From positions 1 to 64,000 of the IMG/VR virus record IMGVR_UViG_3300007735_000780: a stretch of DNA of 64,000 nucleotides; one strand, written 5' to 3'. The position numbers were made by a program, and so were the translations under genes. Below are positions 31,055 to 62,345 of the stretch, piece after piece. The notes below the pieces were generated by a model, which saw only the letters and a program-made list of their open reading frames with translations, had not been told where the DNA came from and did not search any database. The DNA comes from a virus. Position 1 is the first letter of the stretch, and every line of letters begins with the position of its first letter.

Positions 31055-31056
31055 AT

Positions 31057-33991: not shown

Positions 33992-34004
33992 GAATAGAGT
34001 TTGT

Positions 34005-34014: not shown

Positions 34015-34019
34015 TAAGA

Positions 34020-34049: not shown

Positions 34050-34072
34050 TGTTATGATATTTATTTTTATTT

Positions 34073-46109: not shown

Positions 46110-46119
46110 TAATAAATAT
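46110..46119 (-). promoter_or_regulatory. Candidate late promoter element (one mismatch)
   Basis: Sense strand ATATTTATTA, 17 bases before the portal start; it touches the terminase stop. Confidence 0.4.
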
Positions 46120-48327: not shown

Positions 48328-48424
48328 CAATTTTTTCTTTATTAGACCAGTAATATTTCTTACTATATTCTCGTTGTTTGAGAATACGTTCATCTTCTGT
48401 TTGGTATTTTTTGATACGCCCCAT
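48275..48424 (-). CDS. Small basic protein, 49 residues, overlapped by the endonuclease gene
   Basis: ATG at 48424. It reads MGRIKKYQTEDERILKQREY, then 'SKKYYWSNKEKIDEKLKQKYH', ending NNKS at 48275. The 'MGRxKKYxTxxER...R.Y.KKYY..NKEKI' form is a recurrent short basic phage protein, so it is likely a real gene. The last 17 codons overlap the start of the GIY-YIG gene in another frame, so its original C-terminus was probably replaced when the endonuclease inserted. A promoter element ends only three bases from its ATG, which may instead serve the endonuclease. Confidence 0.6.
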   Translation of the reverse strand: MGRIKKYQTEDERILKQREYSKKYYWSNKEKIDEKLKQKYHRNLQNNKS

Positions 48425-48466: not shown

Positions 48467-48979
48467 TCAATTTAAGTCAGGATTTATTTCATCTGGCCAA
48501 TTTTCGTAATAAGAATCTATTATAGCATTAGCCTCTTTTTTTGTTATAGGAACATATCCTCCTGGTACTTTAAAGTTTTCTGATGGTTTTGTTGGGTCTT
48601 TATAGAAGTTTATTATATCTTTTATAGGAATTTCTATATTAAAATCATCATCATCCCATTCAAACTTACTTTGAGCTCTTCTATTGGAAACCCCTTTATC
48701 TAAAGTCCATGTTACCATAAATGTATCACCATCACTAAAATCCCAATCAGAATTTTCATCATATAAAGAATATATAATATTTCCTTGTTTATCTATTTTA
48801 GTATCTGATTGGTTTAGGGTATTTTTTTGATTTTTTTGATTCTGGTAGAATTCTAATGATTTTTTAAGCCAATCCCCAATGCCATCATCTTCAATGCCAT
48901 CATCTTCAATATTATCGTTTTCAGTTAGTACTTTACGTATTTCTTCCTTAATAATTTGTTTTAATTCAGATTTTTTCAT
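48467..48979 (-). CDS. Putative capsid-cargo protein with gp21-cleavable leader
   Basis: 170 residues from ATG 48979. A further ATG at 49006 is in frame, but the internal start gives the leader MKKSELKQIIKEEIRKVLTE, whose first 14 residues match the leader of the gene at 55630-55770. Cleavage after LTE (Glu20) would leave a mature acidic protein: 'NDNIEDDGIEDDGIGDWLKK', then 'YSLYDENSDWDFSDGDTFMVTW' and a beta-rich domain. The mature part has no recognised family. It is one of two leader-bearing genes directly upstream of the terminase cluster. Confidence 0.72.
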   Translation of the reverse strand: MKKSELKQIIKEEIRKVLTENDNIEDDGIEDDGIGDWLKKSLEFYQNQKNQKNTLNQSDTKIDKQGNIIYSLYDENSDWDFSDGDTFMVTWTLDKGVSNRRAQSKFEWDDDDFNIEIPIKDIINFYKDPTKPSENFKVPGGYVPITKKEANAIIDSYYENWPDEINPDLN

Positions 48980-49026
48980 TTTGATTTGTTTTAAGTCTTG
49001 ACCCATAACTTTTTAAATTAACTAAC

Positions 49027-49470
49027 TTAATTTTTAAGTTTATTGTAGGCTTTTATAGTATCTTGGTGTTTAAGTATCCAAGCTTTAGCTTCTTTATCAC
49101 CACTATTAGCCGCTTTAGCTTTTGCTTTTATATCACCAGCTATTTTTTTATAAGCGGATATTATTTCGTCTCTTTTTTTATTAATTTTTTTATTTTTCTT
49201 TTCTTCTTCTTTAGCAGATTTATTAGATTCTTTATCAGAAGCTGTATCATCTAAAGTGTCAAATTCATCATCTTCGTCTTCAGTTTCTTCTAATTTTTCT
49301 ATTTTTTTAATGTTAGGATTTGCAGCTTTAAAAGCATTTGCTGCTGCAGCATTGGCAAATGATTCTAAATCATCTTTTCCACTAGCTCCTGTTACTTTAT
49401 AAGCTTCACTTTCTCCTAATATTTCAGTAATAGCATCTTCTATTTGTTTTTTTAATTCTGATAGTTTCAT
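49027..49470 (-). CDS. Putative capsid-cargo protein with gp21-cleavable leader
   Basis: 147 residues. The leader 'MKLSELKKQIEDAITEILGE' ends in the L-x-E site ILGE (Glu20). The rest is charged and low complexity: 'SFANAAAANAFKAANPNIKKIEK', an acidic stretch 'ETEDEDDEFDTLDDTASDKES', then a Lys-rich coiled coil 'EEEKKNKKINKKRDEII' and 'AKAKAANSGDKEAKAWILKH'. No family is known. The alternation of acidic and basic blocks is like small internal head proteins. It has a near-match promoter element. Confidence 0.72.
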   Translation of the reverse strand: MKLSELKKQIEDAITEILGESEAYKVTGASGKDDLESFANAAAANAFKAANPNIKKIEKLEETEDEDDEFDTLDDTASDKESNKSAKEEEKKNKKINKKRDEIISAYKKIAGDIKAKAKAANSGDKEAKAWILKHQDTIKAYNKLKN

Positions 49471-49485
49471 TATGTTTAGGTTTTG

Positions 49486-49495
49486 TAATAAATAT
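49486..49495 (-). promoter_or_regulatory. Candidate late promoter element (one mismatch)
   Basis: Sense strand ATATTTATTA, 15 bases before the start at 49470. Confidence 0.4.
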
Positions 49496-50025
49496 CAAAA
49501 CCCTAAGCAACCTTTAATCTGTTTAATCCTTTCCTCAGTAGTACCAGAAATTATACCTAAATTTTTAATATTATTAAGATTACTAGTAATAGTATTTTTA
49601 ATAGTTAAATCAATTATATCCCTATAATCTGCATTAGTTTCTCTAACACCATTGTCTTCAATTTTTACACCAATAGGTGAAACATAAAACACATAATCAT
49701 AGTCCCAAATAAATGGAGCAGCATACTTAATAAATGCTTCTTTATCTTCTTGATAAATTGATGTAGCACATTGAGTAAAAGCCATAACATCAATTACTGT
49801 TCTATCAGTAATAACATTTTCTCGTAATAATTCAGAACAACGTTCAGCTAAGAATATTGTTTGACCTTTTAATGTACTATCAGTGTTTAATGGAATACCC
49901 AAATCACGTAAGTATTTACTACGTTCAGTAGCAAAGAAATAATCTTTAAATTCAGGTAATTCTTTTAAAGCATGTACTAGTGTAGATTTGCCTACACTCA
50001 TTGTTCCACAAAAACCTATTTTCAT
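49495..50025 (-). CDS. P-loop kinase of the AAA_28 / NadR kinase type
   Basis: 176 residues. Walker A 'GTMSVGKST' at 7-15, then 'FFATERSKYL', 'TDRTVIDVMAFTQ' (Asp of the substrate or Mg site) and 'DYDYVFYVSPIG ... NGVRETNADYRDII', the layout of the AAA_28 family that includes the ribosylnicotinamide kinase domain of NadR and some phage nucleotide kinases. It is a cytoplasmic enzyme. The substrate (a deoxynucleoside monophosphate or nicotinamide riboside) cannot be read from the sequence. The FAD-dependent dehydrogenase lies two genes upstream, so a redox-cofactor link is possible but not shown. Confidence 0.82.
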   Translation of the reverse strand: MKIGFCGTMSVGKSTLVHALKELPEFKDYFFATERSKYLRDLGIPLNTDSTLKGQTIFLAERCSELLRENVITDRTVIDVMAFTQCATSIYQEDKEAFIKYAAPFIWDYDYVFYVSPIGVKIEDNGVRETNADYRDIIDLTIKNTITSNLNNIKNLGIISGTTEERIKQIKGCLGF

Positions 50026-50046
50026 ACTTATAATATAATTAAAACA

Positions 50047-50286
50047 TTATGATCTAGCACCTTTACCAACACTGCTCTTAAACCAAGGTAACCCAACTCC
50101 ATCACGTTTTGCTTTATGATGACTGTCCTTAGTATGTTGAGTACCATTAATAAAATACTCTTCTTTTCCGTCTGGGTGTATTATGGCTGGTCCTTCCCAA
50201 TTGTGAAGTTTTCCATCTTTAAGGTAACGAATTGTACCATCTGTTGATTTGTACATTTTAGTTTGAAACGTAGGATCGATTTTCAT
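50047..50286 (-). CDS. Small protein with YwqK/MORN-like repeats
   Basis: 79 residues: 'YKSTDGTIRYLKDGKLHNWEGPAIIHPDGKEEYFINGTQHT'. The D-G-K-L-H-N-x-x-G-P-A-I-I-x-x-D-G-K-x-x-Y-x-x-N-G pattern is the short beta repeat seen in YwqK-like and MORN-type proteins and common in large phage genomes. The C-terminal tail is basic (KDSHHKAKRDGVGLPWFK). Function unknown. It sits between the dehydrogenase and kinase genes with gaps of 6 and 21 bases, so all three are co-transcribed. Confidence 0.75.
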   Translation of the reverse strand: MKIDPTFQTKMYKSTDGTIRYLKDGKLHNWEGPAIIHPDGKEEYFINGTQHTKDSHHKAKRDGVGLPWFKSSVGKGARS

Positions 50287-50292
50287 ATGTTT

Positions 50293-51600
50293 TTATTTTA
50301 TTAAATTTTCAGCTACATAAATACCTTGAGCACCACTAACAGTAATACCACGAGCAGATAAAGCATCACCTACAAAGTGTACATTTGGATAGTCTACTAA
50401 TGCTAAGTTTTTATAGTCTACTAATGGTTCAGGAGACAAATATTTTACTTCAGGAATATACATTCCCCAATCATCACCAAATTCAAATACTTTATTCATT
50501 TGATCAATGAAATCTTCGATATATTTAAAGTAACCACCCATAGCATGTCTAACATATTTTAGTGAGTATTCTGGTATTTCTGAAGCTGCTACAGTAGTAC
50601 CTTCAGATGTTAGGCTTGGTTTACGGGTTTTATTTGGTGAGTAATATAATCCTGTTTTGTTTGTTTGGCATAACTCTACTACTTTTCTTGACCATTCAAA
50701 TGGATTTTCGATGCCTTTGATTTCCATTAGAATACCAAAATTAGTCATGTCATTACGATACTGTTCACCTTTTTTAGCATGGCCATTATATGAAATGTCT
50801 CCATATGTTTCCTCTACTGCTACGTAAGCTGCGTTATTATTAGTACAGAATGAGCGTAATGAAACATTATCAAACTTTTGATATAGTTTAAAATCATAAC
50901 TAATATCAATTAATTTTTGGAAGTATTTTTGTGGTGCTTCAAAACGTACTCCAATTTGAACTGATTTTGGTTCTGTTGGTAATTTATAGTCATATGATAG
51001 TTGTTGAGCAAAATCAATACCTGATTTACCTACAGCGAATATCAATTCATCGTATGGTAATAAACCTTTATTACCATTATCAGCGGTAGATAATACCATA
51101 TTTTCTTTAAAGTCAATCCAATCTACAGTTACATTCCAGGCAAATCTAACACCTTTATCAACTAAATATTGATACCATGCTTTAGCAATTTCATGTAGAT
51201 AATTTGAACCAATATGCCATACAGGAAACAAACGTAACCCAAAATATGGCTTAATAAAATCAGGTTCTGCTTGTGGGTCAGAGCAAAATATTTCTTCTGG
51301 TTTAGGATGGAAACGTCTAAAGTTATTAATAACTTGATCCATCAATTCCATTGCTTTTTCTTCACCACAGTATTTTGATAATACACCTCCAATTGCAGTA
51401 TGGTAAGTCAATTTACCATCACTCCATCCTCCACTGCCTAACATGCCTGTCATTACTTCCTCTGGTTGGCGTTTGAAAGGATCATTACCCTTATCAATTA
51501 TTGTAATTAAATGTCCTGGGTACCCATTGTCTACAAGTTTAGTAGCAAAATTAATACCTGCTACTCCTGCTCCGATCACTACTATTTTTTGTTCTTTCAT
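50293..51600 (-). CDS. FAD-dependent dehydrogenase / NAD(P)-FAD oxidoreductase
   Basis: 435 residues from ATG 51600. A longer frame from 51657 adds 19 residues that belong to an endonuclease remnant. The dinucleotide-binding fold starts at once: 'KIVVIGAGVAGINFATKL' with GxGxxG at 10-15. Further on are 'GMLGSGGWSDGKLTYH' (flavin contact), 'YDELIFAVGKSG' and the C-terminal FAD motif 'FVGDALSARGITVSGAQG' (about 409-426). This matches uncharacterised FAD-dependent dehydrogenases (COG2509-like). The substrate is unknown. A flavin enzyme within a phage head-gene block is unusual; it would be an auxiliary metabolic gene. A GIY-YIG endonuclease sits directly upstream. Confidence 0.88.
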   Translation of the reverse strand: MKEQKIVVIGAGVAGINFATKLVDNGYPGHLITIIDKGNDPFKRQPEEVMTGMLGSGGWSDGKLTYHTAIGGVLSKYCGEEKAMELMDQVINNFRRFHPKPEEIFCSDPQAEPDFIKPYFGLRLFPVWHIGSNYLHEIAKAWYQYLVDKGVRFAWNVTVDWIDFKENMVLSTADNGNKGLLPYDELIFAVGKSGIDFAQQLSYDYKLPTEPKSVQIGVRFEAPQKYFQKLIDISYDFKLYQKFDNVSLRSFCTNNNAAYVAVEETYGDISYNGHAKKGEQYRNDMTNFGILMEIKGIENPFEWSRKVVELCQTNKTGLYYSPNKTRKPSLTSEGTTVAASEIPEYSLKYVRHAMGGYFKYIEDFIDQMNKVFEFGDDWGMYIPEVKYLSPEPLVDYKNLALVDYPNVHFVGDALSARGITVSGAQGIYVAENLIK

Positions 51601-51601
51601 A

Positions 51602-51664
51602 TTATTTATATTTCCATTTATATCCAAAAGCTGTTTTCTGCCTACCAAATATAGCATCCTTTAT
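51602..51664 (-). pseudogene. Remnant of a homing endonuclease C-terminus
   Basis: In the gap between the intact GIY-YIG gene and the dehydrogenase start, one frame reads IKDAIFGRQKTAFGYKWKYK followed by TAA (51602-51604), with a stop codon just before it. The ending 'G-R-Q-K-T-A-x-G-Y-K-W-K-Y' is the standard C-terminus of NUMOD-containing homing endonucleases. It is out of frame with the intact gene upstream, so it looks like debris of an older or recombined endonuclease. Confidence 0.7.
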
Positions 51665-51677
51665 TTAAAAAACCAAA

Positions 51678-52169
51678 TTATTTTGCTTTTGAAGGACGAA
51701 TTTTCCAATTGTCAATATATTTTAATTCTTGTTCTTTTTTACATTTTAAAGTCACAGTATTCACATTAATTTGCAACTTATTAGCCGCTTCAATACATGA
51801 ATTATAAATTTCTCCAGTTTGGATATTTAAAATTTTTTTACCTAAATTTCTTTTAAATCTATTATCTTTCCAAACTTTTTTTAAAGATTCACTTTTTTTA
51901 TTTTTAGATTCTTCTGAGTATGAAATAGGGCCTCCGCCTCCGTTGTTTTTATTAGTTAATCTAAACCCCCAAGATTTAAATAATGATATATAATATTTTT
52001 CCCAAAATTTCCATTCCTCAGTAGGAATTTCATCTATAACTTCTAATAATGTATCTTTTCCATAAAGACGTTTATGTTGATAACTCCTATGTAATTTTTT
52101 ATTTTTGGTTTTTCCAATATAAAAAGGAACATTATCTCCTTTATGTAAGTAATATATTATTGTTTCCAT
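51678..52169 (-). CDS. GIY-YIG homing endonuclease, upstream of the dehydrogenase
   Basis: 163 residues. The GIY motif is degenerate ('IIYYLHKGDNVPFYIGK': YYL for GIY, YIG at 17-19), Arg28 lies in 'LHRSYQH', and a Glu in 'EEWKFWEKYYISLF' is positioned as the metal ligand. A short NUMOD3-like stretch ('GPISYSEESKNKKSESLKK') and a NUMOD1-type end ('QTGEIYNSCIEAANKLQINVNTV') follow. It is a selfish DNA-cutting element. Its C-terminal module is similar to that of the enzyme at 47686-48327, so the two may be related invaders. A near-match promoter element lies four bases upstream. Confidence 0.87.
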   Translation of the reverse strand: METIIYYLHKGDNVPFYIGKTKNKKLHRSYQHKRLYGKDTLLEVIDEIPTEEWKFWEKYYISLFKSWGFRLTNKNNGGGGPISYSEESKNKKSESLKKVWKDNRFKRNLGKKILNIQTGEIYNSCIEAANKLQINVNTVTLKCKKEQELKYIDNWKIRPSKAK

Positions 52170-52173
52170 ACAT

Positions 52174-52183
52174 ACATAAATAT
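52174..52183 (-). promoter_or_regulatory. Possible late promoter element (two mismatches)
   Basis: Sense strand ATATTTATGT, 4 bases before the endonuclease start at 52169. The weakest member of the set. Confidence 0.25.
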
Positions 52184-52199
52184 ATGGAGTCGCAGTAAA

Positions 52200-52221
52200 G
52201 GAGCTGCCCTAAGACAGCTCC
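52200..52221. terminator. Hairpin, possible bidirectional terminator
   Basis: Perfect 7-bp stem GGAGCTG/CAGCTCC (52200-52206 with 52215-52221). The T-run is strong on the plus-strand side (ATTTTTAGTTTTT) and only TTTA on the minus-strand side, so termination of the cargo unit here is plausible but not certain. Confidence 0.55.
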
Positions 52222-52243
52222 ATTTTTAGTTTTTAGTTAAAGC

Positions 52244-52262
52244 GACCGGCTATGAATCGGTC
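52244..52262. other. Second hairpin in the same gap
   Basis: 5-bp stem GACCG/CGGTC (52244-52248 with 52258-52262). It follows the 276-residue gene stop by 13 bases on the sense strand, then comes GCTTTAAC. Weak terminator or RNA-stabilising hairpin. Confidence 0.35.
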
Positions 52263-52274
52263 TATATGTTTATT

Positions 52275-53105
52275 TTATCGTTCTACATAATTGTGTCCAC
52301 CTTGATCCCATTCAATACTAGGATAAGATTTATTTAATTTAGAATTAGGTGCTATTTTTTTAATAAAATCTTTCATAGCTAAGTATATATCATCACCGGC
52401 TGCAGAATTTTTCTCATCTGGAGGATAAGTTGTAAAAAAATTTGGGATATGAGTGTTTTTTTCATATTGTTTAACCCATTCTGTCATTTTGCTAAGGAGT
52501 TTTTTGCCTTCATCAGGAGTTAATTGTTTATCATTAACCCATCCATCTATCCATTTTTTGGCGTAAATAACGCCTGGGTCTTTGCTATAGTCTTTGCCAA
52601 AACCAAATATTTCATTTGTTTGGTTTTCAACTAAGGCTTTCTTTTTTGAATTATATTGGGCCTCAGTAATTACACCTGCTAATTTTTGCATTTTAAGGAA
52701 TGATTCATTTAATGCTTCTTCTTTCATTCCATCATCACTCATTTCCATTTGAGCAGTTACATCTGCTTCATCAACAGGAGCATCTTCTGTTTTTGCATCA
52801 GTTACTACTTTTTCTTTTTTATCCTTTTTAGCCCTCATTTTTTCAAGTATTTTATTAGCTTTTTTACTATAGTTTTCAAGGGCTTTAATTTCATTTTGAA
52901 TTTCTTTTACTTTGGTTTCATCAACCATTTCTTTAAGATCTTCATTTTCACTAATTCTATTTAGTCTTTCTTTGCGTACTTTAATTGCTTCTTCACAAGC
53001 ATTAACTTTAGCTTGTTGAGATGCTTCATTAGCTGTTTGATCAATTTCACGAATATATTCATTAATAGATTCTCTTATAAGGGAACGTAATTTTTCTACT
53101 TGCAT
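52275..53105 (-). CDS. Putative capsid-cargo protein with leader and coiled coil
   Basis: 276 residues. The leader 'MQVEKLRSLIRESINEYIREID' holds three (I/L)-x-E sites (LIRE, SINE, YIRE). Residues 25-105 are a Lys/Glu-rich coiled coil, then an acidic stretch ('DAKTEDAPVDEADVTAQMEM'). 'SFLKMQKLAGVITEAQYNSKKKALVEN' at about 143-168 is a second leader-like helix. The C-terminal domain (about 175-276) has 'YAKKWIDGWVNDKQLTPDEGKKLLSKMTEWV' and could be separated from the rest by cleavage. No family is recognised. Confidence 0.72.
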   Translation of the reverse strand: MQVEKLRSLIRESINEYIREIDQTANEASQQAKVNACEEAIKVRKERLNRISENEDLKEMVDETKVKEIQNEIKALENYSKKANKILEKMRAKKDKKEKVVTDAKTEDAPVDEADVTAQMEMSDDGMKEEALNESFLKMQKLAGVITEAQYNSKKKALVENQTNEIFGFGKDYSKDPGVIYAKKWIDGWVNDKQLTPDEGKKLLSKMTEWVKQYEKNTHIPNFFTTYPPDEKNSAAGDDIYLAMKDFIKKIAPNSKLNKSYPSIEWDQGGHNYVER

Positions 53106-53126
53106 TTTATTTAAGTTTTATTTTGT

Positions 53127-53136
53127 TTATAAATAT
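53127..53136 (-). promoter_or_regulatory. Candidate late promoter element
   Basis: Exact ATATTTATAA on the sense strand, 21 bases before the start at 53105. Confidence 0.5.
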
Positions 53137-53139
53137 TAA

Positions 53140-54723
53140 TTAAACTGTTTTCTTTTCAACTTTTTGATTTAATTTAAAATTTCTTACACCTTTAATAACC
53201 CTAATATCTTGTAATAATTGTTGTAAATCTTCATCTTTAAATCCAGAAGGATAAGGATGCGGATCAACTTTTATTTTAATAATAGTACCATAATTTTCAT
53301 TATTAGTAGCATATTCGTTTGGGTTTATGTCTTCAGAAGACACAATTGTAATACCTGGTAAAGAACGAATGTCAGACATTATGTCCTTTTGAGGGCGTTC
53401 TCTAGTATCTGTGTAAAGGATACCTTCAAGATTGTATTGGGTTGATTCTTCTTTTAAAATTTTAACTTTTAAAGTACCATCACCTTTAACAACTCTATGC
53501 CATTCACCAGCAGGTATTCTAATTGGTTTATTTATAGAAACAGGTAATTGGTTTTCGAGTTGGATTTTCCAATTTGTATCACCAATAATTTCTATAATGC
53601 GGTTTTCTTTATCACGATGCCATTTTAATTCAATAGGATCGATGTTTTCGTTAAATTCACGAAGGATGTATTTATCTGTTGTTTTGAGATCTTTGTAGGG
53701 ACGTTTTTCTTCTGTTAAACCCAAATCAGACAAATCTATATCATCTACATTATCTTCATCATCATTAGAAAGAGAACTCATAGTTTTTTCAGCATCTTTT
53801 TTCTGTAAGTATACTTGCATTCTTTCTAATTTATCTTCAATCCAAGCAATTTGATCTTCACTTAAAGGTCTATCACCTACAACATTACTTATAAATGAAA
53901 AGAATTCATTTGGTTCTAATTTAAAAACCGATACATAAAATATAACGAATGTTCTTGGGTCAATATCTGGAGGAGTAAATGCTTTGTATATAACTTTTAG
54001 TTTTTCAAATATAATTGGGCCGTAACGAATATCTTCAGGTTCATATTCTAATCTATCAACTTTATCAACTGTGGCTTGTCTTTCTTCACCACTACCTTTT
54101 AATCCGGTTTGAGCTAAAATACTCCAATAACCTTTTAAAATTTCATGGACCAACATTGGAAAACAAATTGCTTCAGCAATAATTTTAGGACCTTCATTTT
54201 CAGTTACAATTTGAGATTTACCACCAGCTAAATTTCGACCTGAAGCAATAGCGGCAAGCATCATGTTTATGGCTTGATCATCATTGTATATACCAAAAAC
54301 TTGTTTCATTAATTCATTATACTTGTCATATAATGATGAATTAATAGAACGTATTTGTTGTATTACACTTTCTTTTTCAAATAAAGAATATAATTCTTCA
54401 ACAGATGCTCCTTGAGCTAAAGCATTAGAAACTCGTCGTTGTTTCTCATATGGATTATATTCTTCAAGAGTAACATTACTAACTATTCTAGCTTCTACAT
54501 CAATATTATCTGATACTAAAGTAGGATAATGATCCTTAACTATATCAATAGCTAACTGTGATAATTGAGACTTATATGGTGCTTCAATTGAAATTACAAG
54601 ACTTAATAATTCTTGAGAAGATCTCATCATTTGCATAAGACTTTTTCCTCTAATTTTTTCAGAGGATTTAGCCTTTAGCTTAGCTATGATTTCAGGATCA
54701 AATATGTCTTGATACTTAGGCAT
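53140..54723 (-). CDS. Large virion-region protein with cupin-like 'WHRD' domain
   Basis: 527 residues. Residues 1-320 are helical ('SLMQMMRSSQELLSLVISIE', 'GIYNDDQAINMMLAAIASGRNLAGGKS') with no recognised family. At about 370-430 lies 'ELKWHRDKENRIIEIIGDTNWKIQ', then 'NKPIRIPAGEWHRVVKGDGTLKVKI', a double-stranded beta-helix (cupin) pattern with two W-H-R motifs, which I have met as a small domain in virion-associated proteins of large phages. The C-terminal 90 residues form an alpha/beta domain ('VDPHPYPSGFKDEDLQQLLQDI'). It is coupled by TAATG to a small leader-bearing gene upstream. Confidence 0.72.
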   Translation of the reverse strand: MPKYQDIFDPEIIAKLKAKSSEKIRGKSLMQMMRSSQELLSLVISIEAPYKSQLSQLAIDIVKDHYPTLVSDNIDVEARIVSNVTLEEYNPYEKQRRVSNALAQGASVEELYSLFEKESVIQQIRSINSSLYDKYNELMKQVFGIYNDDQAINMMLAAIASGRNLAGGKSQIVTENEGPKIIAEAICFPMLVHEILKGYWSILAQTGLKGSGEERQATVDKVDRLEYEPEDIRYGPIIFEKLKVIYKAFTPPDIDPRTFVIFYVSVFKLEPNEFFSFISNVVGDRPLSEDQIAWIEDKLERMQVYLQKKDAEKTMSSLSNDDEDNVDDIDLSDLGLTEEKRPYKDLKTTDKYILREFNENIDPIELKWHRDKENRIIEIIGDTNWKIQLENQLPVSINKPIRIPAGEWHRVVKGDGTLKVKILKEESTQYNLEGILYTDTRERPQKDIMSDIRSLPGITIVSSEDINPNEYATNNENYGTIIKIKVDPHPYPSGFKDEDLQQLLQDIRVIKGVRNFKLNQKVEKKTV

Positions 54724-54980
54724 TACTTTTTATTTTTAAGCATTTTAGCGTATCTATTTCTTATTTTTTCAGCTACCTTTTCAGCTGCTTTTTCTGCTTT
54801 TTCTTTTTCTCTTGTACCAGGTTCTGGGGTTGTTCCAAATTCATCATCCTCTGGAGAGGTTTTACGCTTTGGTTTGGTTTCAGTATCAGTTTCAGGTTTA
54901 GCAGGAGCAGTTTGAGGTGCTTCAGCTAATACTCTTTCAATTTCTTCCTTAATAATTTTTTTAAGTTCTGTAAGTTTCAT
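54723..54980 (-). CDS. Small leader-bearing protein, putative internal head protein
   Basis: 85 residues. The leader 'MKLTELKKIIKEEIERVLAE' ends in the L-x-E site VLAE (Glu20). The mature part is short, Pro/Thr-rich and then basic and helical ('PETDTETKPKRKTSPEDDEF', 'EKAEKAAEKVAEKIRNRYAK'). Size and composition are like T4 internal proteins IPI-IPIII, which enter the head through a similar leader and are injected with DNA. It has its own promoter element and is coupled by TAATG to the 527-residue protein. Confidence 0.75.
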   Translation of the reverse strand: MKLTELKKIIKEEIERVLAEAPQTAPAKPETDTETKPKRKTSPEDDEFGTTPEPGTREKEKAEKAAEKVAEKIRNRYAKMLKNKK

Positions 54981-54992
54981 ATTTTTGTTTAT

Positions 54993-55002
54993 TTATAAAT
55001 AT
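54993..55002 (-). promoter_or_regulatory. Candidate late promoter element
   Basis: Exact ATATTTATAA on the sense strand, 12 bases before the start at 54980. Confidence 0.5.
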
Positions 55003-55637
55003 TATTTAGTTTTTCCCCATTTTTTTCCTTTACCAGGTGTTTTACACTGTGATGGTGTAGGACGACATGAAGGATATTTGGCTCGTTTTTCACCTTCTTT
55101 TCTACCACAAGGTTTACATTTGCCGTTTCTACAAGTATTGCAATCTACCCATCCACCTTCTTTACCTGGAGCACCTTTGCGTTTGAACCAGGTACGGAGT
55201 GTTTCTTTTTGTTTTTCGGTTAATTGTTCTTCTTCCTTTAAATCTTTCCAAATTTCACCCTTACGACACCTAACAATTGCTCCTGATTTGTAAGCAGAAG
55301 GTTTATCGTATTTGCGATCAGCAATACGTTTGCAACGGTCTGCTTTCTTTTCTAAAAGAAGCTGTTTTAGTATGTCTGTAAGTTTTACTTCAGATATATT
55401 TTTTTTCTTTTTAATAAATTCTAATATTTTTATAATATCACTTAATTTTTTTAAAAAAATCTTAAATTCTTGTGGGTTATTTTTTATATATTCTGCTCCT
55501 AAATCAATAAAACCATTTATAGCATTATCAACAATTAATGTGTATTCTTTATAAAGATTAGGTTTAATTTCTTTTATATCTAGTAAAAGAGTATCTATCT
55601 TATTAGAAAGTGGTTTTATTTGATCAAAATTACTCAT
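55002..55637 (-). CDS. Two-part protein: helical N-terminus, internal leader, Cys-rich C-terminus
   Basis: 211 residues. Residues 1-92 are helical. A leader-like stretch 'VKLTDILKQLLLEKK' at about 100-114 ends in an L-x-E site. The C-terminal 95 residues form a conserved basic Cys-rich domain seen in large phages and giant viruses: 'RCKRIADRKYDKPSAYKSGAIVRCRKGEIW', then 'TLRTWFKRKGAPGKEGGWVDCNTCRNGKCKPCGRKEGEKRAKYP' and 'GKGKKWGKT'. I know the pattern but no function. A gp21-type cut at the internal leader would release the Cys-rich part, probably DNA-binding from its charge. Confidence 0.78.
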   Translation of the reverse strand: MSNFDQIKPLSNKIDTLLLDIKEIKPNLYKEYTLIVDNAINGFIDLGAEYIKNNPQEFKIFLKKLSDIIKILEFIKKKKNISEVKLTDILKQLLLEKKADRCKRIADRKYDKPSAYKSGAIVRCRKGEIWKDLKEEEQLTEKQKETLRTWFKRKGAPGKEGGWVDCNTCRNGKCKPCGRKEGEKRAKYPSCRPTPSQCKTPGKGKKWGKTK

Positions 55638-55770
55638 TTTCTATGTTAAAATCTTTTTTTATTTTTTCTATTAAATCTGAAAGATTTTGATTGATTTTAG
55701 AAGCTTTTTGATTTTTTTCTTCTAAAATTATTTCTTCTTTAATGATTTGTTTTAATTCTGATTTTTTCAT
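55630..55770 (-). CDS. Leader-only small protein, 46 residues
   Basis: ATG at 55770. It reads MKKSELKQIIKEEIILEEKN, then 'QKASKINQNLSDLIEKIKKD'. The first 14 residues are identical to the leader of the gene at 48467-48979. An (I/L)-x-E site (ILE, Glu17) leaves only about 29 residues, so it is either a tiny internal protein or a decayed cargo gene that kept its leader. Its stop overlaps the next start by eight bases (ATGAGTAA), so translation is coupled. Confidence 0.65.
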   Translation of the reverse strand: MKKSELKQIIKEEIILEEKNQKASKINQNLSDLIEKIKKDFNIENE

Positions 55771-55799
55771 AGTAAAGTATTTTTAATATGTCTGTAAGT

Positions 55800-58394
55800 T
55801 TAGGCACGGTTTTTTAATCTATGTTTTAATTCATTCATTGATTCCGGATCTGCTTCAGCATGTAATGCTAACATTACTTTTGCATTTTCAGTTAAATCTC
55901 TTTGTCTTAACTGAGTTGCAAGATCGTCTGGACTTGGTATTCTAAAAGAAGTATTTGGGGTAATTATGTAGTGTTGATTACCAGGTTGAAAAACAGCTGA
56001 TCCTACATAGTTTCCGTTTCTTAAACGAATAATATAAAATTTAGAATTACCTGCAGAAATTGTTTCTTCAACTCTTCCTCCATATGGTCTTAAGATGTTA
56101 TTCCTACGAGATGCACCTCTGTCAACTGCATATCTTCCAAGAATTGTTCCAGATGATAATGTATTTCGTACATTTTGAGGTAGGCTATTAAATCCACCTG
56201 TTAGTCCAAATTGTTCAATTCTAGTTGCAACTTCAGGGTTTGCAGCAGCAGCAGCTGGGGCTTGTATAGGTGCTTCACCACGTGCTGGTCTTCCTCTTCT
56301 TCTAATAGGAGCAAGAACTCGTTCTTGACCTGGTTCTTGACCGGGGGCATTAACTGTTGTTGCTTGTGTTCCAATAAACTGAGCAGCAGCTCGAGGAGGG
56401 AAATTATAATTTATTAATCGGCCTGTATTATTAGATATTATTTTACTATTTCTAGAATTAATTCTGTTTAATAGTATATATTTGTCTTCTACAACTACAG
56501 CTATCCATCTTTCACCTAGTGGAGGATTAGCAGCAATTATATTCTTTTTATTTTGTGTTTGCCATCCAGAATTATTTAGTACTCTAATAATTTCATCATC
56601 ATTATATACCCATCCTTTTCCTCTTGCATATTCAAAATATTCTCTAGTAGCTTGTGCATCATCAGCAAAATTGTAACTTCCTCTATTACGTCTCCAATCA
56701 TTACTATCTAAATCAAAATATGCACTTGCACGTAAACCACCTTCTATTTTTTCGTTTTTAATTAAATACATTCCATCATCTGTAATGATTACAACATGAG
56801 GTACTCTACTAAATTCAACTATCCTATTATTAATAGGAATATTTTTTATTAAACGAATAAATGTTTCTTTATCAACTGAATCAGGAATACCTGTACTTAC
56901 TAGTTGTAAAACATTATTTTGAAAACCATCATTTTCTGATTCTTCATTAAACAATCTTTGAACTTCTTCACTGTCAAAAGGAATAGGTGTAATTTTATTG
57001 TCTACAATTTTATAAGAAGTAAAACTGTTAGAGTCAATTAAAATTTGTCCATTTTCTGTGTTTTTTAATACTATGGCTGAGTCAGGATCATTTTTAGCTT
57101 TTTCTAAAACTCGATTTATAACTGATTTATCAATTGCTTCTTGGGATGCTAATTTAAGAATAGTTTTAAAAGGAATAGTATCAATGTCTGGATAATCGAT
57201 TAAGAATTTAGAGGTACGTTTATTTAGTTTAATATTAGGGTAATCAGCATCGGCTGTATATACTCCTACTTGTAAATCATCTCCAAATGTTAATAAAACT
57301 ATAGCTTCACCATTTGCAGTGACATACATTCTTTCATTATCTTTAAGTTTCCATTTGTCTAATTTAACTAATAACTTTTTAACATCAAATGAAAATGTTT
57401 CTTTTTTTAAAAAGTCTAAATCTATTTTATCTCTCATATTAGCCATAATAGATTTTCTATCTTGGTTTGAGAATTTATCTAGATTTTTTAATAAAACTTC
57501 CTTTTCAATAATATCAGAATTTATAGCTATGAATTCAGCTAATTGAGGGTATTCTGGAAGGTATTTGGCTACAAATTCATCATTTTCAATGTCATCAAAA
57601 AGATCCCTATCGTTTTTTCTAGCAACCAAATACTGCTTTTTCATCTCAAACGGGAATTGAGACCATTCTCTATAAGTAGCAGCTTTATTTTTATAAGCTT
57701 GAGTTATTTTTTCAGAACTTGATAATGGAATATATTTTAAAATATTATTAAGGTTAGGCACTTCAGAAAGCCAAGGAACTTGTCTTACTAAACTGTTAAA
57801 ATCCATAGGATCTGACTCATATGGAGAATTTTTTCTATTAGTAAAAACATATCTTTTACTTTCACTAGGTACATCTCTAACCTGTATTGCTACAAAACTT
57901 AATGCATCATCTGATGATAAATTAGTATTTTTAGCTAAATAAAATGTAGGATACCCTCTATCTGCACTGTATCTATAATTACCATATGATCCTCTGGTTA
58001 TACACCATTTTTCACCTTGTCCAAAATTAATACAATTTCCCTCTTTACTACCATTGTAAATAACAATAGTATTGTTGTCATTATTATAAACAACGTCTGG
58101 GGTAATGTCTGCTTCTTCAGGTGCATCTGCACCTGCTGATTTAGAAACTAATTTTATTAATTGTGATAAAGAATACTTACGTAAATCTTTTTCAGTAATT
58201 TTAGGTGAATTTTTTAATTGATCAAAACGATTAATGTATGACTTTAATTGATCATCTGTTATCTGAATGTTTAAATCATCGGCTTCTTCTTTGAATTTAG
58301 CCATTAAATTTCGTAATTCACCCTCAGAATACTCGTTAAGAGGAAACAAGTTATGAACAACGTGTATTATAAATTTTTTAGTATTGCTATTCAC
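55800..58394 (-). CDS. Large protein with GEKWCITR motif, function unknown
   Basis: 864 residues, with GTG as the start codon (58392-58394). The N-terminal 100 residues are helical. At 120-170 the sequence 'NCINFGQGEKWCITRGSYGNYRYSADRGYPTFYLAKN ... SFVAIQV' gives Cys121, Trp130-Cys131 and a Tyr/Arg-rich loop. Similar 'G-x-K-W-C-x' domains recur in uncharacterised large-phage proteins. Beta-rich repeats follow (about 360-660: 'VLKNTENGQILIDSNSFTSY', 'GEAIVLLTFGDDLQVGVYT', 'ERWIAVVVEDKYILLNR'), then an Ala/Pro/Arg linker (about 680-715) and a C-terminal domain. It has its own promoter element. It could be an enzyme or a large injected protein; the sequence does not decide. Confidence 0.75.
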   Translation of the reverse strand: MNSNTKKFIIHVVHNLFPLNEYSEGELRNLMAKFKEEADDLNIQITDDQLKSYINRFDQLKNSPKITEKDLRKYSLSQLIKLVSKSAGADAPEEADITPDVVYNNDNNTIVIYNGSKEGNCINFGQGEKWCITRGSYGNYRYSADRGYPTFYLAKNTNLSSDDALSFVAIQVRDVPSESKRYVFTNRKNSPYESDPMDFNSLVRQVPWLSEVPNLNNILKYIPLSSSEKITQAYKNKAATYREWSQFPFEMKKQYLVARKNDRDLFDDIENDEFVAKYLPEYPQLAEFIAINSDIIEKEVLLKNLDKFSNQDRKSIMANMRDKIDLDFLKKETFSFDVKKLLVKLDKWKLKDNERMYVTANGEAIVLLTFGDDLQVGVYTADADYPNIKLNKRTSKFLIDYPDIDTIPFKTILKLASQEAIDKSVINRVLEKAKNDPDSAIVLKNTENGQILIDSNSFTSYKIVDNKITPIPFDSEEVQRLFNEESENDGFQNNVLQLVSTGIPDSVDKETFIRLIKNIPINNRIVEFSRVPHVVIITDDGMYLIKNEKIEGGLRASAYFDLDSNDWRRNRGSYNFADDAQATREYFEYARGKGWVYNDDEIIRVLNNSGWQTQNKKNIIAANPPLGERWIAVVVEDKYILLNRINSRNSKIISNNTGRLINYNFPPRAAAQFIGTQATTVNAPGQEPGQERVLAPIRRRGRPARGEAPIQAPAAAAANPEVATRIEQFGLTGGFNSLPQNVRNTLSSGTILGRYAVDRGASRRNNILRPYGGRVEETISAGNSKFYIIRLRNGNYVGSAVFQPGNQHYIITPNTSFRIPSPDDLATQLRQRDLTENAKVMLALHAEADPESMNELKHRLKNRA

Positions 58395-58416
58395 CTTATA
58401 AAATTTTTAATGTCTT

Positions 58417-58426
58417 TTATAAATAT
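58417..58426 (-). promoter_or_regulatory. Candidate late promoter element
   Basis: Exact ATATTTATAA on the sense strand, 22 bases before the GTG start at 58394. It supports that GTG as the true start. Confidence 0.5.
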
Positions 58427-58433
58427 GTAACAT

Positions 58434-58682
58434 TCATTCTTCATTTTTAGGATGAAACCAATTAGAACACCATTTAGATGGGTCTTTAATTTGGTTTCCT
58501 TCATCATCTACTAATTCATTAGTACCCTTATATTTTTGGTATTCTTTATTATTACAATAATGTTTATCATCTTCCATGTAATAATATTCACAAACGTGAC
58601 AACCAAATCCTACAGGTGAGTACATGTAAGGAGGATATTTTTCCTCCTTTCCTTCTTTTAATATGTCTATTAGTTTAATCAT
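58434..58682 (-). CDS. Four-cysteine protein, possibly HiPIP-like redox protein, with short leader
   Basis: 82 residues. The N-terminus 'MIKLIDILKEGK' is leader-like with L-x-E at Glu10. Cysteines at 28, 31, 43 and 72 are arranged as 'FGCHVCEYYY', 'HYCNN' and 'KWCSNWF'. A C-x2-C-x-Y-Y start and a W-C-x-x-W end resemble high-potential iron-sulfur proteins, though spacing before the last Cys is longer than usual. A zinc site is the alternative. It abuts the next upstream gene by one base. Confidence 0.65.
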   Translation of the reverse strand: MIKLIDILKEGKEEKYPPYMYSPVGFGCHVCEYYYMEDDKHYCNNKEYQKYKGTNELVDDEGNQIKDPSKWCSNWFHPKNEE

Positions 58683-58683
58683 A

Positions 58684-59313
58684 TCACCAAAATCCTGAAA
58701 ATGTTGTTTTAAAGCCTAATAATTTTGCATAACGAGGTAATCTGCAACTCCAATATGAAGCTTTAGTTCTATCTTTCTTTTGAGCACATTTGTGACGAGC
58801 AGCAAATGCTTTACGTGCTTTAGGGTTATTCAGTTTAGCAGACATACCTGCTTGACCAAATGATACTTTTTTAATTCCTCCACCTGGTTTTCTTACGTAT
58901 ACATAAAACTTTTTAGAACCACCACGTTTTGGTTTACCAATTGGGGGTTGTTTCTTTTCTTCCTCTAATTCAGCTTCAGTTAATAATTCCATCATTGGAT
59001 AATCAAGTGGAACAACTTCACCTTCATACATTCCAAAACGTCCAATATCTGTGGTTTCAAATAGCTTTTTATCAATATCTTGTAATTCAATTACACCTTT
59101 TTTCCACAATAAACGTGTTTCATGAATCAATTCAATATGTGCCTTAGAACCAGGTCTAAAAACATTATCATGAATTTGAATTTTATTGTCTAAATGATAT
59201 CTAAGGTTTTCTGAAATGGGCATTTCATATTGCTTAGACTCGTTTAGTGTAGGAGCAGCTGTAGGCTGTTCGGTTAGTGTTTTTTTAATTATTTCTATAA
59301 GGCGTTGTTTCAT
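58684..59313 (-). CDS. Conserved virion-type protein with leader
   Basis: 209 residues. The leader 'MKQRLIEIIKKTLTE' ends in the L-x-E site TLTE (Glu15). The C-terminal 80 residues carry a basic block I know from structural proteins of T4-like marine phages: 'KKFYVYVRKPGGGIKKVSFGQAGMSAKLNNPKARKAFAARHKC', then 'KASYWSCRLPRY'. Basic charge and two Cys suggest binding to DNA or the core. Its start overlaps the stop of the upstream gene by four bases. Confidence 0.75.
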   Translation of the reverse strand: MKQRLIEIIKKTLTEQPTAAPTLNESKQYEMPISENLRYHLDNKIQIHDNVFRPGSKAHIELIHETRLLWKKGVIELQDIDKKLFETTDIGRFGMYEGEVVPLDYPMMELLTEAELEEEKKQPPIGKPKRGGSKKFYVYVRKPGGGIKKVSFGQAGMSAKLNNPKARKAFAARHKCAQKKDRTKASYWSCRLPRYAKLLGFKTTFSGFW

Positions 59314-60503
59314 GCTGTTTTCATTTTTAAATCTAATGGTAATATATTACCTTGAGTGTTTCTTATTTCAATTAAATAATTAACTTGTCCAAGTATTGGA
59401 CTTTCCGCTGTTAACTTTAATGTTAATGATTTAGTTTCAGCATTAGGATACTTAATTGAAATATCCTTTATATTTCCTACTAAATTATAAGCATCTTTAG
59501 CAGTGTTTATATTATAAATGAATATATCATTTTTCTTTTCTCTTACATACCAATAACCATATCCATATCCTGAGGCTATTAGGTTACGTAAAGCATCAGT
59601 ATCTCCAGAAACTGATATAAATGAATTAGGTATTTTACCTGAACCAACTATGTATTCATTAACACCTTGAGCTACTTTTTTAGGATCAATTTGAAATGCT
59701 TTAAAAATAGCCGCCATCATAGGTTTAGAATTAAATTTAGAAGGTTCATATACTGCTTTACCTTCTTTTTCAACTATAAAAGGTATTATCCCTCCATTGT
59801 AAAATGTCCCACCTGATATATTTTTTAATGAAATATAATAATCTGGTTTGATTATTATGTCTGCTATTTTAAATCCAATGTCTTGAGGTCCTTCAAAACT
59901 TAAAGAACGTTTAGTATCTTTATTACCTGCAAAAGATATATCCTCAGGGGATAACTGTGATGGATTAATTTTTAAAGTAGTAAAAAGTTTTTTAACATCT
60001 TGATCTTCAATATCATTAATATTAGAACCGGTATTTGCTTTTAATCTACTTACAAAATCTTGTTCATATTTTTCTCCAACATTTGCCCCTCCAGATAATA
60101 TAATCTTAACAGGACCTTCAAATGTATCAAATAAATACATATTAAACTTAGAACTTGGGTTTTCTCCTTCTTTAGGTTTAAGTACAGTTACTTGTGGATT
60201 ATCAAATGTGTCTTTAATAATTTTTAAAAATTGATCTGAAGAAATCTTATTTAAATTTCCAAGTCTAAACCATTCTGATTGGGTTTTAAATTTATATTGT
60301 TTACCTAATTTTGAATTAATAATAGTCTGAATGGCGTTTATTGTGTTTTGTTTTAAAGTACCTTCATTTAATTTTATATCTTCACCTAACACCTCGCTTA
60401 CTAATGATTCGAGTAAAAAAACATCCTGTTCATTATTCATGTCAGGATATCCTTTAGGGAACTTATAAGAAATACTATTTAAAAATTGTTCAAATACATT
60501 CAT
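59310..60503 (-). CDS. Leader-bearing protein with possible nuclease-like core
   Basis: 397 residues from ATG 60503. An open frame reaches 60644 but runs over the upstream gene with low-complexity Lys/Gln, so the later start is right. The N-terminal 41 residues end 'LLESLVSEVLGE', an L-x-E site after an amphipathic helix. The core reads 'VGEKYEQDFVSRLK ... GFKIADIIIKPDYYISLKNISGGTFYNGG', which has the E ... D ... x-x-K order of PD-(D/E)xK-type nucleases; this is a weak match. The C-terminal domain is beta-rich. If cargo, it could be an injected nuclease. Confidence 0.7.
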   Translation of the reverse strand: MNVFEQFLNSISYKFPKGYPDMNNEQDVFLLESLVSEVLGEDIKLNEGTLKQNTINAIQTIINSKLGKQYKFKTQSEWFRLGNLNKISSDQFLKIIKDTFDNPQVTVLKPKEGENPSSKFNMYLFDTFEGPVKIILSGGANVGEKYEQDFVSRLKANTGSNINDIEDQDVKKLFTTLKINPSQLSPEDISFAGNKDTKRSLSFEGPQDIGFKIADIIIKPDYYISLKNISGGTFYNGGIIPFIVEKEGKAVYEPSKFNSKPMMAAIFKAFQIDPKKVAQGVNEYIVGSGKIPNSFISVSGDTDALRNLIASGYGYGYWYVREKKNDIFIYNINTAKDAYNLVGNIKDISIKYPNAETKSLTLKLTAESPILGQVNYLIEIRNTQGNILPLDLKMKTA

Positions 60504-60504
60504 A

Positions 60505-61029
60505 TTATGTAGGTAATTCTTCTGGTACTTCCTCTGTTGGAGGTGTTTCTTCAGTTGGAGGTGCTTCTGGTACTGTTTCGTCTGCAGGTATTTCTCCACC
60601 TGTTGGTACTTCAGCTGTTTCTTCTTCTTTAGCCTTACTACCATACATTAGTATTCTAGCTATAGATTCTGCTGCTCTTTCTTCCTCGTCTATATTCAGC
60701 ATATAATATTTTTTACCTTCAACTTGAGCAATCCATGAACGTTCAGTGTAAATCAAATAGAAATACTGTCCATTTGCTAAAAGAATTTTAAAAGTAGTAG
60801 GACGAGGAGCAACCCAATGAATATCAGAAATAAAATCTTCGTATTGTTTTGTTAAAAGATTTATTATAACTTGTTTTAAAGTAGGGAATTTAGATAAAAT
60901 AGGAAATGTTTCTTTATCAAAGTTTACATCACTAGGTTCAACACCTAACGTGTTATCTTTAATTTTAGCAGAATAAACACGTTTTGCTATTGTTTGAATT
61001 TTATCTATAAGTTCCTGTTTGCTTGCCAT
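60505..61029 (-). CDS. Hypothetical protein with Pro/Glu/Thr-rich tail
   Basis: 174 residues. Residues 1-125 are a compact alpha/beta domain: 'ASKQELIDKIQTIAKRVYSAKI', 'LKQVIINLLTKQYEDFISDIHWVAPRPTTFKILLANGQYFYLIYTE' and 'GKKYYMLNIDEEERAAESIARIL'. The last 40 residues are an acidic, proline-rich tail (PTEETPPTEEVPEELPT). Function unknown. It is separated from its neighbours by a single base on each side. Confidence 0.72.
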   Translation of the reverse strand: MASKQELIDKIQTIAKRVYSAKIKDNTLGVEPSDVNFDKETFPILSKFPTLKQVIINLLTKQYEDFISDIHWVAPRPTTFKILLANGQYFYLIYTERSWIAQVEGKKYYMLNIDEEERAAESIARILMYGSKAKEEETAEVPTGGEIPADETVPEAPPTEETPPTEEVPEELPT

Positions 61030-61030
61030 T

Positions 61031-61726
61031 TTATTTGTCTAAAGTATATAAGGCTTCTTTTTCATCAAGAGGACCTTGTTTTGTGTTCTGGTATGCTAAA
61101 TATTGGGTAACTGAGTTTAAGTAATCAGCTGCTTTAGTAATTTTGCTTTGTACCCATGCTTCTAATTGTGTATCGTCGTCAAGTGAAGACATTAACATTT
61201 GAGCGTTTTGCATTAAACAATACAATTCTGATTTGGCCATTTCACCTTCATAATCCATTTCCATTTCTTGGTCTCCATCACAGCCACAATCTTCTTTAAG
61301 TTTTACCCCACGTCCTTTTAACACATCAGCGTAGGTTACTTTACCATCACCTGTTAAATCCGGGAATTTTTTATCTTTTTTCTCGCTTAAAGCATTTTTA
61401 ATAATTTCTTTTAGTCTGTCTGTGTTTTTCATTTTGACTTGTTTTTTAGCTATATTCATTGCTCTACCACGTAATACGTCTTCAGCATCTGCTCCGTATT
61501 TCTTTACAGCTTTTCTACCAGAAGAGGCTTTCATAGCCTGGTAAATGTCTTCTGCTCTGTCTAGAATAGCTTGAGTAATTTTACTTGTTTCTTCTTTAAT
61601 ATTACCCTTTTCAGCAGCATATAAAGCCCTCATGTAAGATTTAGCTTTTCCTACAGAGGATGAACAGCCTTTTTTTTCGCCTGTTTCTTTATTATATATG
61701 CATTTTCCTTTTCTTTCGTAGGGCAT
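61031..61726 (-). CDS. Two-part protein with internal leader and EF-hand/dockerin-like loop
   Basis: 231 residues. Residues 1-98 are basic and helical ('YERKGKCIYNKETGEKKGCSSSVGKAKSYMRALYAAEKG'), a form common in large phages and sometimes DNA-binding. At 99-115 'MKNTDRLKEIIKNALSE' is a complete leader with an L-x-E site. Directly after it comes 'FPDLTGDGKVTYADVLKGRG' (121-140), a calcium-loop pattern (D-x-x-G-D-G-x-V), then an acidic Cys pair and a helical end. A cut after Glu115 would split the protein in two; an internal start at Met99 is also possible. Confidence 0.75.
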   Translation of the reverse strand: MPYERKGKCIYNKETGEKKGCSSSVGKAKSYMRALYAAEKGNIKEETSKITQAILDRAEDIYQAMKASSGRKAVKKYGADAEDVLRGRAMNIAKKQVKMKNTDRLKEIIKNALSEKKDKKFPDLTGDGKVTYADVLKGRGVKLKEDCGCDGDQEMEMDYEGEMAKSELYCLMQNAQMLMSSLDDDTQLEAWVQSKITKAADYLNSVTQYLAYQNTKQGPLDEKEALYTLDK

Positions 61727-61740
61727 ATTACTGTTTTTTA

Positions 61741-61772
61741 ATAAGAATAAGGGGTTTTACCCCCCTATAACT
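61741..61772 (-). terminator. Terminator after the H1-like gene
   Basis: Sense strand: GGGG stem, TAAAA loop, CCCC, then TTATTCTTATT; outer AATAAG/CTTATT can extend the pairing. It lies 18 bases past the H1-like stop. Confidence 0.7.
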
Positions 61773-61789
61773 TATTGCGGTTTTGTTGA

Positions 61790-61963
61790 TTACTTTGCTT
61801 TGTCTTCAGCAACCGATGCTTTACGGTACTCAGTTACCAACTTTTTCAAATCACCAGCTGCCTTGCGAGCTCTACCATGAGCTGCTTTGGAAGTTTTGGC
61901 GTGTTCAGTTGTAAACTCTTCCCATAAACCTTGCATTTGTTCAAATAACTCTTGACTGTTCAT
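61790..61963 (-). CDS. Histone H1-like DNA-binding protein (Hc1 type)
   Basis: 57 residues, ATG at 61963. It reads MNSQELFEQMQGLWEEFTTE, then 'HAKTSKAAHGRARKAAGDLKKLVTEYRKASVAEDKAK'. An N-terminal acidic amphipathic helix followed by 'KAAxxRxRKAxxDLKKLxxEYRK' is the pattern of the short Hc1-like histone H1 proteins found across Bacteroidota. These bind DNA and compact the nucleoid. In a phage it could coat genomic DNA in the head or alter host chromatin. Codons are GC-richer than its neighbours, and a terminator follows at once, so it is likely expressed strongly as a single gene. Confidence 0.85.
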   Translation of the reverse strand: MNSQELFEQMQGLWEEFTTEHAKTSKAAHGRARKAAGDLKKLVTEYRKASVAEDKAK

Positions 61964-61988
61964 AGATTTTATTTATTTAGGGTTAATA

Positions 61989-62345
61989 TTAAGCTTGTCC
62001 TCCATCAACCGGAATTTGGGTTTTTAGGAAGAATAAAGCTGTGTTTCCAATTTGTCTTATTAGTTTATTTTTATTTTCACTTTCAGGCATTTCACGAGCT
62101 GCATCTAATGCTTGTTGTAAGTGTTGTCCAATACGTTTTTCAACTGATTCTCCACCTTCCATATCCATACTTGGTTCTGCGGGGGGCATATCAGCAGGCG
62201 CATCAGCAGGTGTTTCTTCAGAAGCACTAAGGTCTAATTCAACGTCGTCAACAGGAGGTTCTTCATCTTTTTTAAGTTTTTTTTCAAAAAGTGATAACTC
62301 TTCTTTAACTAATTGATTTATTAAGATGCGTAATTTGTTTTCCAT
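61989..62345 (-). CDS. Small leader-bearing protein
   Basis: 118 residues. The N-terminus 'MENKLRILINQLVKEELSLFEKK' is a leader-type amphipathic helix with an L-x-E site at LFE. An acidic Pro-rich stretch ('DEEPPVDDVELDLSASEETPADAPADMPPAEP') is followed by a helical domain 'VEKRIGQHLQQALDAAREMPESENKNKLIRQIGNTALFFLKTQI'. Function unknown; probably internal head cargo. It has a near-match promoter element. Confidence 0.7.
   Translation of the reverse strand: MENKLRILINQLVKEELSLFEKKLKKDEEPPVDDVELDLSASEETPADAPADMPPAEPSMDMEGGESVEKRIGQHLQQALDAAREMPESENKNKLIRQIGNTALFFLKTQIPVDGGQA

Follow-up and report, generated by a model that had tools for sequence, protein, structure and literature searches.

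Leader peptides encoded in the window

The DNA analysed here (the window) is a 64-kb stretch of the 67.5-kb virus record IMGVR_UViG_3300007735_000780 (G000), which belongs to a T4-like phage with homologs of gp17, gp20, gp21 (S77 protease) and gp23. By capsid protein its closest cultured relatives are Flavobacterium phage immuto (53.5%) and Microcystis phage Mel-JY01 (47%). Beside the head genes, on the minus strand, lies a series of genes for otherwise unrelated proteins that begin with short helical leader peptides ending in (L/I)xE. One type, termed class A, has the 20-residue consensus MKxSELKQIIKEEIxxVLxE↓, the arrow marking the predicted cut. The record was scored with a position matrix made from the leaders of other phages, which gave 56.6, 43.6, 42.6 and 22.1 bits for the starts at 48979, 54980, 55770 and 49470, respectively; background maxima were 10.5 bits over 3,780 composition-preserving shuffles of N-termini and 9.8 bits over 17,824 interior windows. 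The leaders and related elements are as follows, with leader coordinates depending on the chosen start codons (CTS, capsid-targeting sequence; ORF, open reading frame):

48920–48979, minus strand: class A leader MKKSELKQIIKEEIRKVLTE↓N of the 170-residue protein 48467–48979 (matrix; the L200 ortholog keeps MKKSELKQLIKEEIQNVLKE)
49411–49470, minus strand: class A variant leader MKLSELKKQIEDAITEILGE↓S of protein 49027–49470 (matrix; relatives end EILGE or EILDE)
53046–53105, minus strand: leader MQVEKLRSLIRESINEYIRE↓I of protein 52275–53105 (orthologs)
52662–52706, minus strand: internal RMQKLAG-type module ESFLKMQKLAGVITE↓A within protein 52275–53105
53449–53472, minus strand: predicted internal cut site KILKE↓ESTQYN within protein 53140–54723 (in G005 and G006 the body after this site is a separate protein with a class A leader)
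54921–54980, minus strand: class A leader MKLTELKKIIKEEIERVLAE↓A of protein 54723–54980 (matrix, orthologs)
55350–55388, minus strand: internal leader VKLTDILKQLLLE↓KKADRC in protein 55002–55637, N-terminal as MKLTDILKQILEE↓ in stand-alone orthologs
55717–55770, minus strand: short class A leader MKKSELKQIIKEEIILEE↓K of the 46-residue ORF 55630–55770 (matrix)
58653–58682, minus strand: class C 10-residue leader MIKLIDILKE↓G, of T4 CTS length, of protein 58434–58682 (LxE at residue 10 in most orthologs)
59269–59313, minus strand: 15-residue leader MKQRLIEIIKKTLTE↓Q of protein 58684–59313 (orthologs)
62283–62345, minus strand: doubtful leader MENKLRILINQLVKEELSLFE↓ of protein 61989–62345 (helix followed by LFE, LME, LYE or VSE in orthologs; not significant by matrix)

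The leader at 53105 is weak by the matrix (6.9 bits, with 0.1 expected by chance); its helix is kept in about 12 orthologs, most of which have (hydrophobic)xE at residue 20. In the orthologs of the proteins starting at 58682 and 59313, hydrophobic-x-E lies mostly at the same place and the remainder varies. The 46-residue ORF is argued to be real because it has a close homolog in L280. The leaders at 48979 and 55770 share their first 14 residues exactly, as the first-pass annotation had reported, and the DNA of these residues differs at three of 42 positions, all synonymous.

That annotation had also assigned a common leader to nine proteins and read it as a delivery tag sending cargo into the head. 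A class A leader or an aligned variant was recovered for five of the nine (left ends 48467, 49027, 52275, 54723 and 55630), and orthologs revealed leaders of other types at 58434 and 58684. The case at 61989 is weak, and the protein at 59310–60644 was dropped, its likely start (MNVFEQFL.., at about 60500) having no such leader. Several elements were additional to that annotation: the internal leaders in the 55002, 53140 and 41816 proteins, the RMQxLAG peptide on gp22, and two leaders lying just beyond the window in the same record. The latter belong to a class A protein of 72 residues at 64339–64557 (L142 4339–4557) and a class C protein at 64554–65060 (L142 4554–5060), which resembles NT5C-type phosphatases (E 2.9e-5, slightly below the Pfam cut-off).

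Among the leader genes, two ORFs resemble GIY-YIG endonucleases by eye (47686–48393 and 51678–52169). It should also be noted that the KWC-type stretch of an 864-residue protein at 55800–58394 looks, by eye, like the body that follows a class A leader in L217.

Distribution, boundary and exchange of the leaders

The leaders are restricted to this group of T4-like phages. A degenerate DNA pattern for class A was matched by 72 stretches (88 proteins) in IMG/VR viral contigs, with at most four per contig and unrelated bodies behind them, and by none in 84,980 prokaryotic genomes. Two scrambled leader patterns had no matches in the viral contigs and, being slightly stricter than the real pattern, serve as supporting controls only. 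Approximately 130 unrelated body families carry the class A leader in IMG/VR. On single 40-kb pieces of leader phages there were as many as eleven class A proteins and as many as three of class C, their genes often adjacent, and no leaders of any class occurred in about 780 kb from eight control contigs, for which an unrelated AT-rich 17-mer served as the selection key. When 50,697 phage records were surveyed by tblastn, which is insensitive with such short queries, class A had no match and the class B peptide (see below) matched in immuto phages only. Four leader strings were absent from the papers listed for such strings or for capsid targeting, and a search for virion proteomics of phage immuto found none.

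The gp21-like protease that the first-pass annotation had placed at 41208–41813 is real (Peptidase_S77, 2e-28; phrog_207, 1e-56). Among contigs of at least 60 kb, eight of ten with leaders and two of 11 random AT-rich ones had a protease of this type (one-sided Fisher p approximately 0.007), these counts not being fully independent because some contigs are near copies of one another. One of the two leader contigs without the protease ends inside the portal gene, beside the expected place of gp21; the second is a fragment from a close relative of G003, a phage in which gp21 is present. Nine protease-free leader contigs all come from this T4-like group, each having 12 to 59 ORFs that match reference phages, and in several relatives the leader genes adjoin gp21. 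Co-occurrence of leader and protease had been named in the first-pass annotation as a test of the delivery tag, and its outcome was favourable.

The boundary was examined in proteins selected for the first 14 leader residues only, with a pattern lacking LxE. In 49 of 71 distinct class A proteins hydrophobic-x-E ends at residue 20, with no more than four ending at any other position, and conservation stops there, residue 21 onward being unconserved. Counting of the bare (L/I)xE triplet was not used alone, because it is close to chance genome-wide (79 seen against 67 expected in G000). The T4 capsid protein gp23 is a substrate of gp21. In the gp23 of 28 phages of this set the sequences QLV(V/I)E↓(A/S/T/N) and IVSE or LISE↓A were found at about residue 60, with an invariant Glu and variable sequence directly after it, a boundary of the same kind as in T4 gp23 when the T4 sequences were compared.

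Two further leader classes were distinguished. Class B has the consensus ..F(I/L)(R/K)MQ(R/K)LAG(I/L)ITE.. and was N-terminal in 31 of 40 distinct proteins in a pattern search. Class C, MIKLxDILKE↓, has the length of the T4 CTS, MKTYQEFIAE; of 99 distinct starts, 73 place the Glu at residue 10, and MKK-type signal peptides account for many of the remainder. Removal of the leaders from 402 tagged proteins left 245 body families, in agreement with the earlier claim that the mature parts are unrelated to each other, and in 14 families homologous bodies stand behind different leader classes. No other evidence speaks as strongly for a common function of the leaders as this swapping. Pfam matched nine families, with one member each, among 147 tagged representatives, and PADLOC and PHROGs scans of 147 tagged proteins matched almost nothing. 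The bodies that could be recognised, namely an ADP-ribosyltransferase (ART) fold, a zeta-toxin-family kinase behind a class C leader (L097 5237–6082; Pfam 3.4e-13, above cut-off) and an NT5C-like phosphatase (slightly under cut-off), fit injected effectors.

ADP-ribosyltransferase-fold body, multidomain proteins and head genes

Homologs of the ART-fold body were gathered from viral contigs by body patterns in which KQ(V/A)G was fixed and the Glu and the hydrophobic residue were left free. Of 61 distinct homologs, 57 have a hydrophobic-x-E whose Glu lies exactly six residues ahead of the core. Another three (L465, L472 and L473) retain the same E-G-(K/R)-Q, offset, with a second match sitting closer. 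The fixed Glu holds behind class C, class A, class B-like and T4-like (MKRFKEFLNE) leaders, and also inside multidomain proteins of approximately 280 to 1,280 residues. A structural model built from 37 sequences (pLDDT 83.6), replacing a five-sequence model that was too poor (pLDDT 64), places the body in the ADP-ribosyltransferase superfamily fold, with the best matches in fold comparison all being Tpt1, KptA or DarT (Tpt1 Z 11.6; DarT Z 8.5–8.8). By sequence no relative was found in the PDB or in phage genomes, so that the likeness emerged by fold comparison only; Pfam Tox-ART-HYD1 was slightly below cut-off. The 37 aligned members show an invariant Y-H-x-T, followed by a nearly invariant S-x-T-R and an E.

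Several long proteins join a cytidylyltransferase-like domain, the ART body, and peptidase-like and phosphatase-like domains, with hydrophobic-x-E↓(A/G/S) between them. The domain names are tentative because the matches are mostly just below Pfam cut-offs and some were made by eye only. When the starts of stand-alone bodies were mapped into the long proteins, 44 of 98 alignments, among them overlapping views of the same junctions, had (hydrophobic)xE precisely where the body was expected to begin, compared with 1.9% at random interior positions. The immuto protein gp088 has a similar multidomain look by eye.

The head genes of the window are arranged as follows:

46119–47693, minus strand: terminase
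44203–46092, minus strand: portal
43309–44163, minus strand: head-cluster protein
42809–43312, minus strand: head-cluster protein
41816–42808, minus strand: head-cluster protein adjoining gp21, where T4 has gp67/gp68; a leader-like helix inside it ends in VLAE↓ at residue 214
41208–41813, minus strand: prohead core protease of gp21 type
39930–41009, minus strand: scaffold gp22 homolog, by its position between gp21 and gp23; C-terminus NNAFARMQQLAGLKK with the class B peptide
38177–39889, minus strand: major capsid protein gp23 (Pfam Gp23, 9e-73), with a predicted propeptide end NQAKQLVVE↓TSQTGT at residue 60, a boundary kept in 27 relatives

The gp22 homolog had no match in Pfam or PHROG. Its C-terminus, FARMQxLAGL(R/K)K (39933–39977 in the window, and in relatives), is common to the N-termini of many other proteins, and wherever gp22 was found in relatives, Mel-JY01 and immuto (RWQKLAGIIK) among them, the class B core forms its extreme C-terminus. 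The C-terminus of T4 gp22 differs from this peptide.

Downstream of the capsid gene along the minus strand lie tail and fibre genes, and fibre-like proteins rich in SHAEG repeats were noted at 16302–22000 and 29585–35083. The 268,739-base IMG/VR contig G025 has two portals and two gp21-type proteases, at 26.9–31.8 kb and 230–234 kb, representing either a double head cluster or a joined assembly.

Candidate capsid-targeting propeptides and their rivals

As their anatomy matches the T4 internal-protein system step by step, the leaders are taken to be T4-like capsid-targeting propeptides carrying diverse injected cargo, some of it as polyproteins, with a probability of roughly 0.8. The short amphipathic helix would dock a protein onto the prohead core, around which the shell would close; the gp21-type protease inside the prohead would then cut after the terminal (L/I)xE and free the body, which would stay with the DNA, be injected at infection and act on the host. 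At least three leader classes (A, B and C) would do the same job, with the bodies being interchangeable effectors together with small proteins of unassigned function, some strung together with the same cut sites between domains. The least certain part concerns class B, whose scaffold-like peptide suggests docking by imitation of the scaffold end. The delivery tag of the first-pass annotation is thus supported by sequence evidence, from which we infer presence in the virion, cleavage and injection. A wider claim, to which somewhat better than even odds are given, is that of a general cargo-loading code in which several interchangeable leaders, one copying the scaffold C-terminus, load the heads of T4-like phages with well over 100 effector families, and effector polyproteins are cut in the prohead by the head protease at (L/I)xE.

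A number of observations weigh against the propeptide interpretation. In phage immuto the class A-like helices of gp080, gp094 and gp095 lack LxE at residues 17–20, so the helix can exist without the site, and in some proteins the leader helix is internal or C-terminal. A conserved baseplate-region protein has a look-alike N-terminal helix (approximately 14–23 bits by the matrix), an example of leader mimicry by amphipathic Lys/Glu helices. After the class C cut the next residue is often Ile or Val, which is less T4-like than Ala or Ser, and for the ITE of class B an alternative role, suggested by a weak Pfam match, is the capping turn of a SHOCT-like hairpin. In addition, no leader of any class was found in G059, a 72,415-base relative with gp21 in which 49 of 67 ORFs match the T4-like set.

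The tagged proteins could be gp21 substrates and yet be core or scaffold parts that are digested or kept in the head, not injected effectors, since the head-cluster protein 41816–42808 and gp22 hold the same modules and gp22, gp67 and gp68 of T4 exit the head once cut (PMC7411985). This is considered improbable: the bodies, over 100 in number, are unrelated and change fast, several have enzyme folds, and different cargo genes form tandem arrays, a picture unlike that of structural core parts. The helix might otherwise serve docking or oligomerisation in a cytoplasmic complex or at a membrane, unrelated to the capsid, with the conserved Glu as a helix cap. Its amphipathic, Lys/Glu-rich character, the immuto copies without LxE and the internal and C-terminal copies would suit such a role, which is nevertheless judged very unlikely: the Glu with a hydrophobic residue two positions earlier keeps a fixed distance from the ART-fold body whatever lies upstream, even inside long proteins, and three dissimilar leaders are interchangeable. 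A DNA recombination cassette (promoter, ribosome site and first codons) that spreads genes, the peptide being neutral, is a hardly credible account of the shared 5' end, although near-identical leaders do occur in adjacent genes of one phage. Third positions of Ile codons inside the leader have a diversity of 1.4–1.5 bits, these codons being nearly random, and in L167 leaders identical in protein (20 of 20 residues) agree in only 54 of 60 bases. Such diversity at synonymous positions points to selection on the peptide and not the DNA, and the cassette idea was rejected on this basis.

The T-even internal proteins are diverse defence proteins with the CTS alone in common (PMC3012670), and the CTS of T4 IPI, IPII and IPIII, cut by gp21, is likewise an N-terminal helix of 10–20 residues ending in hydrophobic-x-E (PMC3012670; PMC7411985). 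Both systems have a leader common to otherwise unrelated, variable proteins and an S77 prohead protease in the same phage, accompanied here by the gp23/gp20 head cluster. The present system differs in its other leader sequences, in having at least three interchangeable classes against one in T4, in far more cargo families, in internal cut sites within multidomain proteins, and in one leader class being common to the scaffold C-terminus, which is not so in T4 gp22. Compared with MKTYQEFIAE, classes A and B differ, whereas class C and certain rare leaders (MKRFKEFLNE and MKYVKTYENFLYE, for example) resemble it, a 10-residue likeness that cannot prove descent.

T4 Alt is a head-packaged, injected ADP-ribosyltransferase, and here too an ART-fold protein stands behind a cleavable-looking head leader. 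The body differs in being Tpt1/DarT-like with an invariant Tyr-His-x-Thr; Alt is of the Arg-Ser-Glu type (PMC5512222), and the active site of the Alt family is absent from the ART-fold body. The polyvalent proteins of phages and conjugative elements (Iyer et al., 2017; PMC5512222) are multidomain, with at least two effector domains per polypeptide (ADP-ribosyltransferase, kinase, zeta-toxin and peptidase types), and their packaging and delivery have been predicted. Several effector-type domains in one ORF were found here as well (cytidylyltransferase-like and ART), mostly just below Pfam cut-offs; they differ in being joined by head-protease-like sites and in also occurring singly behind leaders. 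The polyvalent-protein study points to built-in peptidases for processing (PMC5512222). In phages phiKZ and SPN3US, head and ejection proteins also bear N-terminal propeptides that are removed after x-E by a T4-like prohead protease (PMC5694885), but these are mostly longer than 100 residues and occur on a handful of proteins.

The injected internal proteins of T-even type known so far are few, since no body resembles another. If the leaders are the CTS equivalent in uncultured aquatic T4-like phages, a tag of 10–20 residues becomes a search key for injected effectors, one that already points to about 245 body families, and it would illustrate how numerous proteins can be loaded by a phage in one go, several of them freed from a single precursor.

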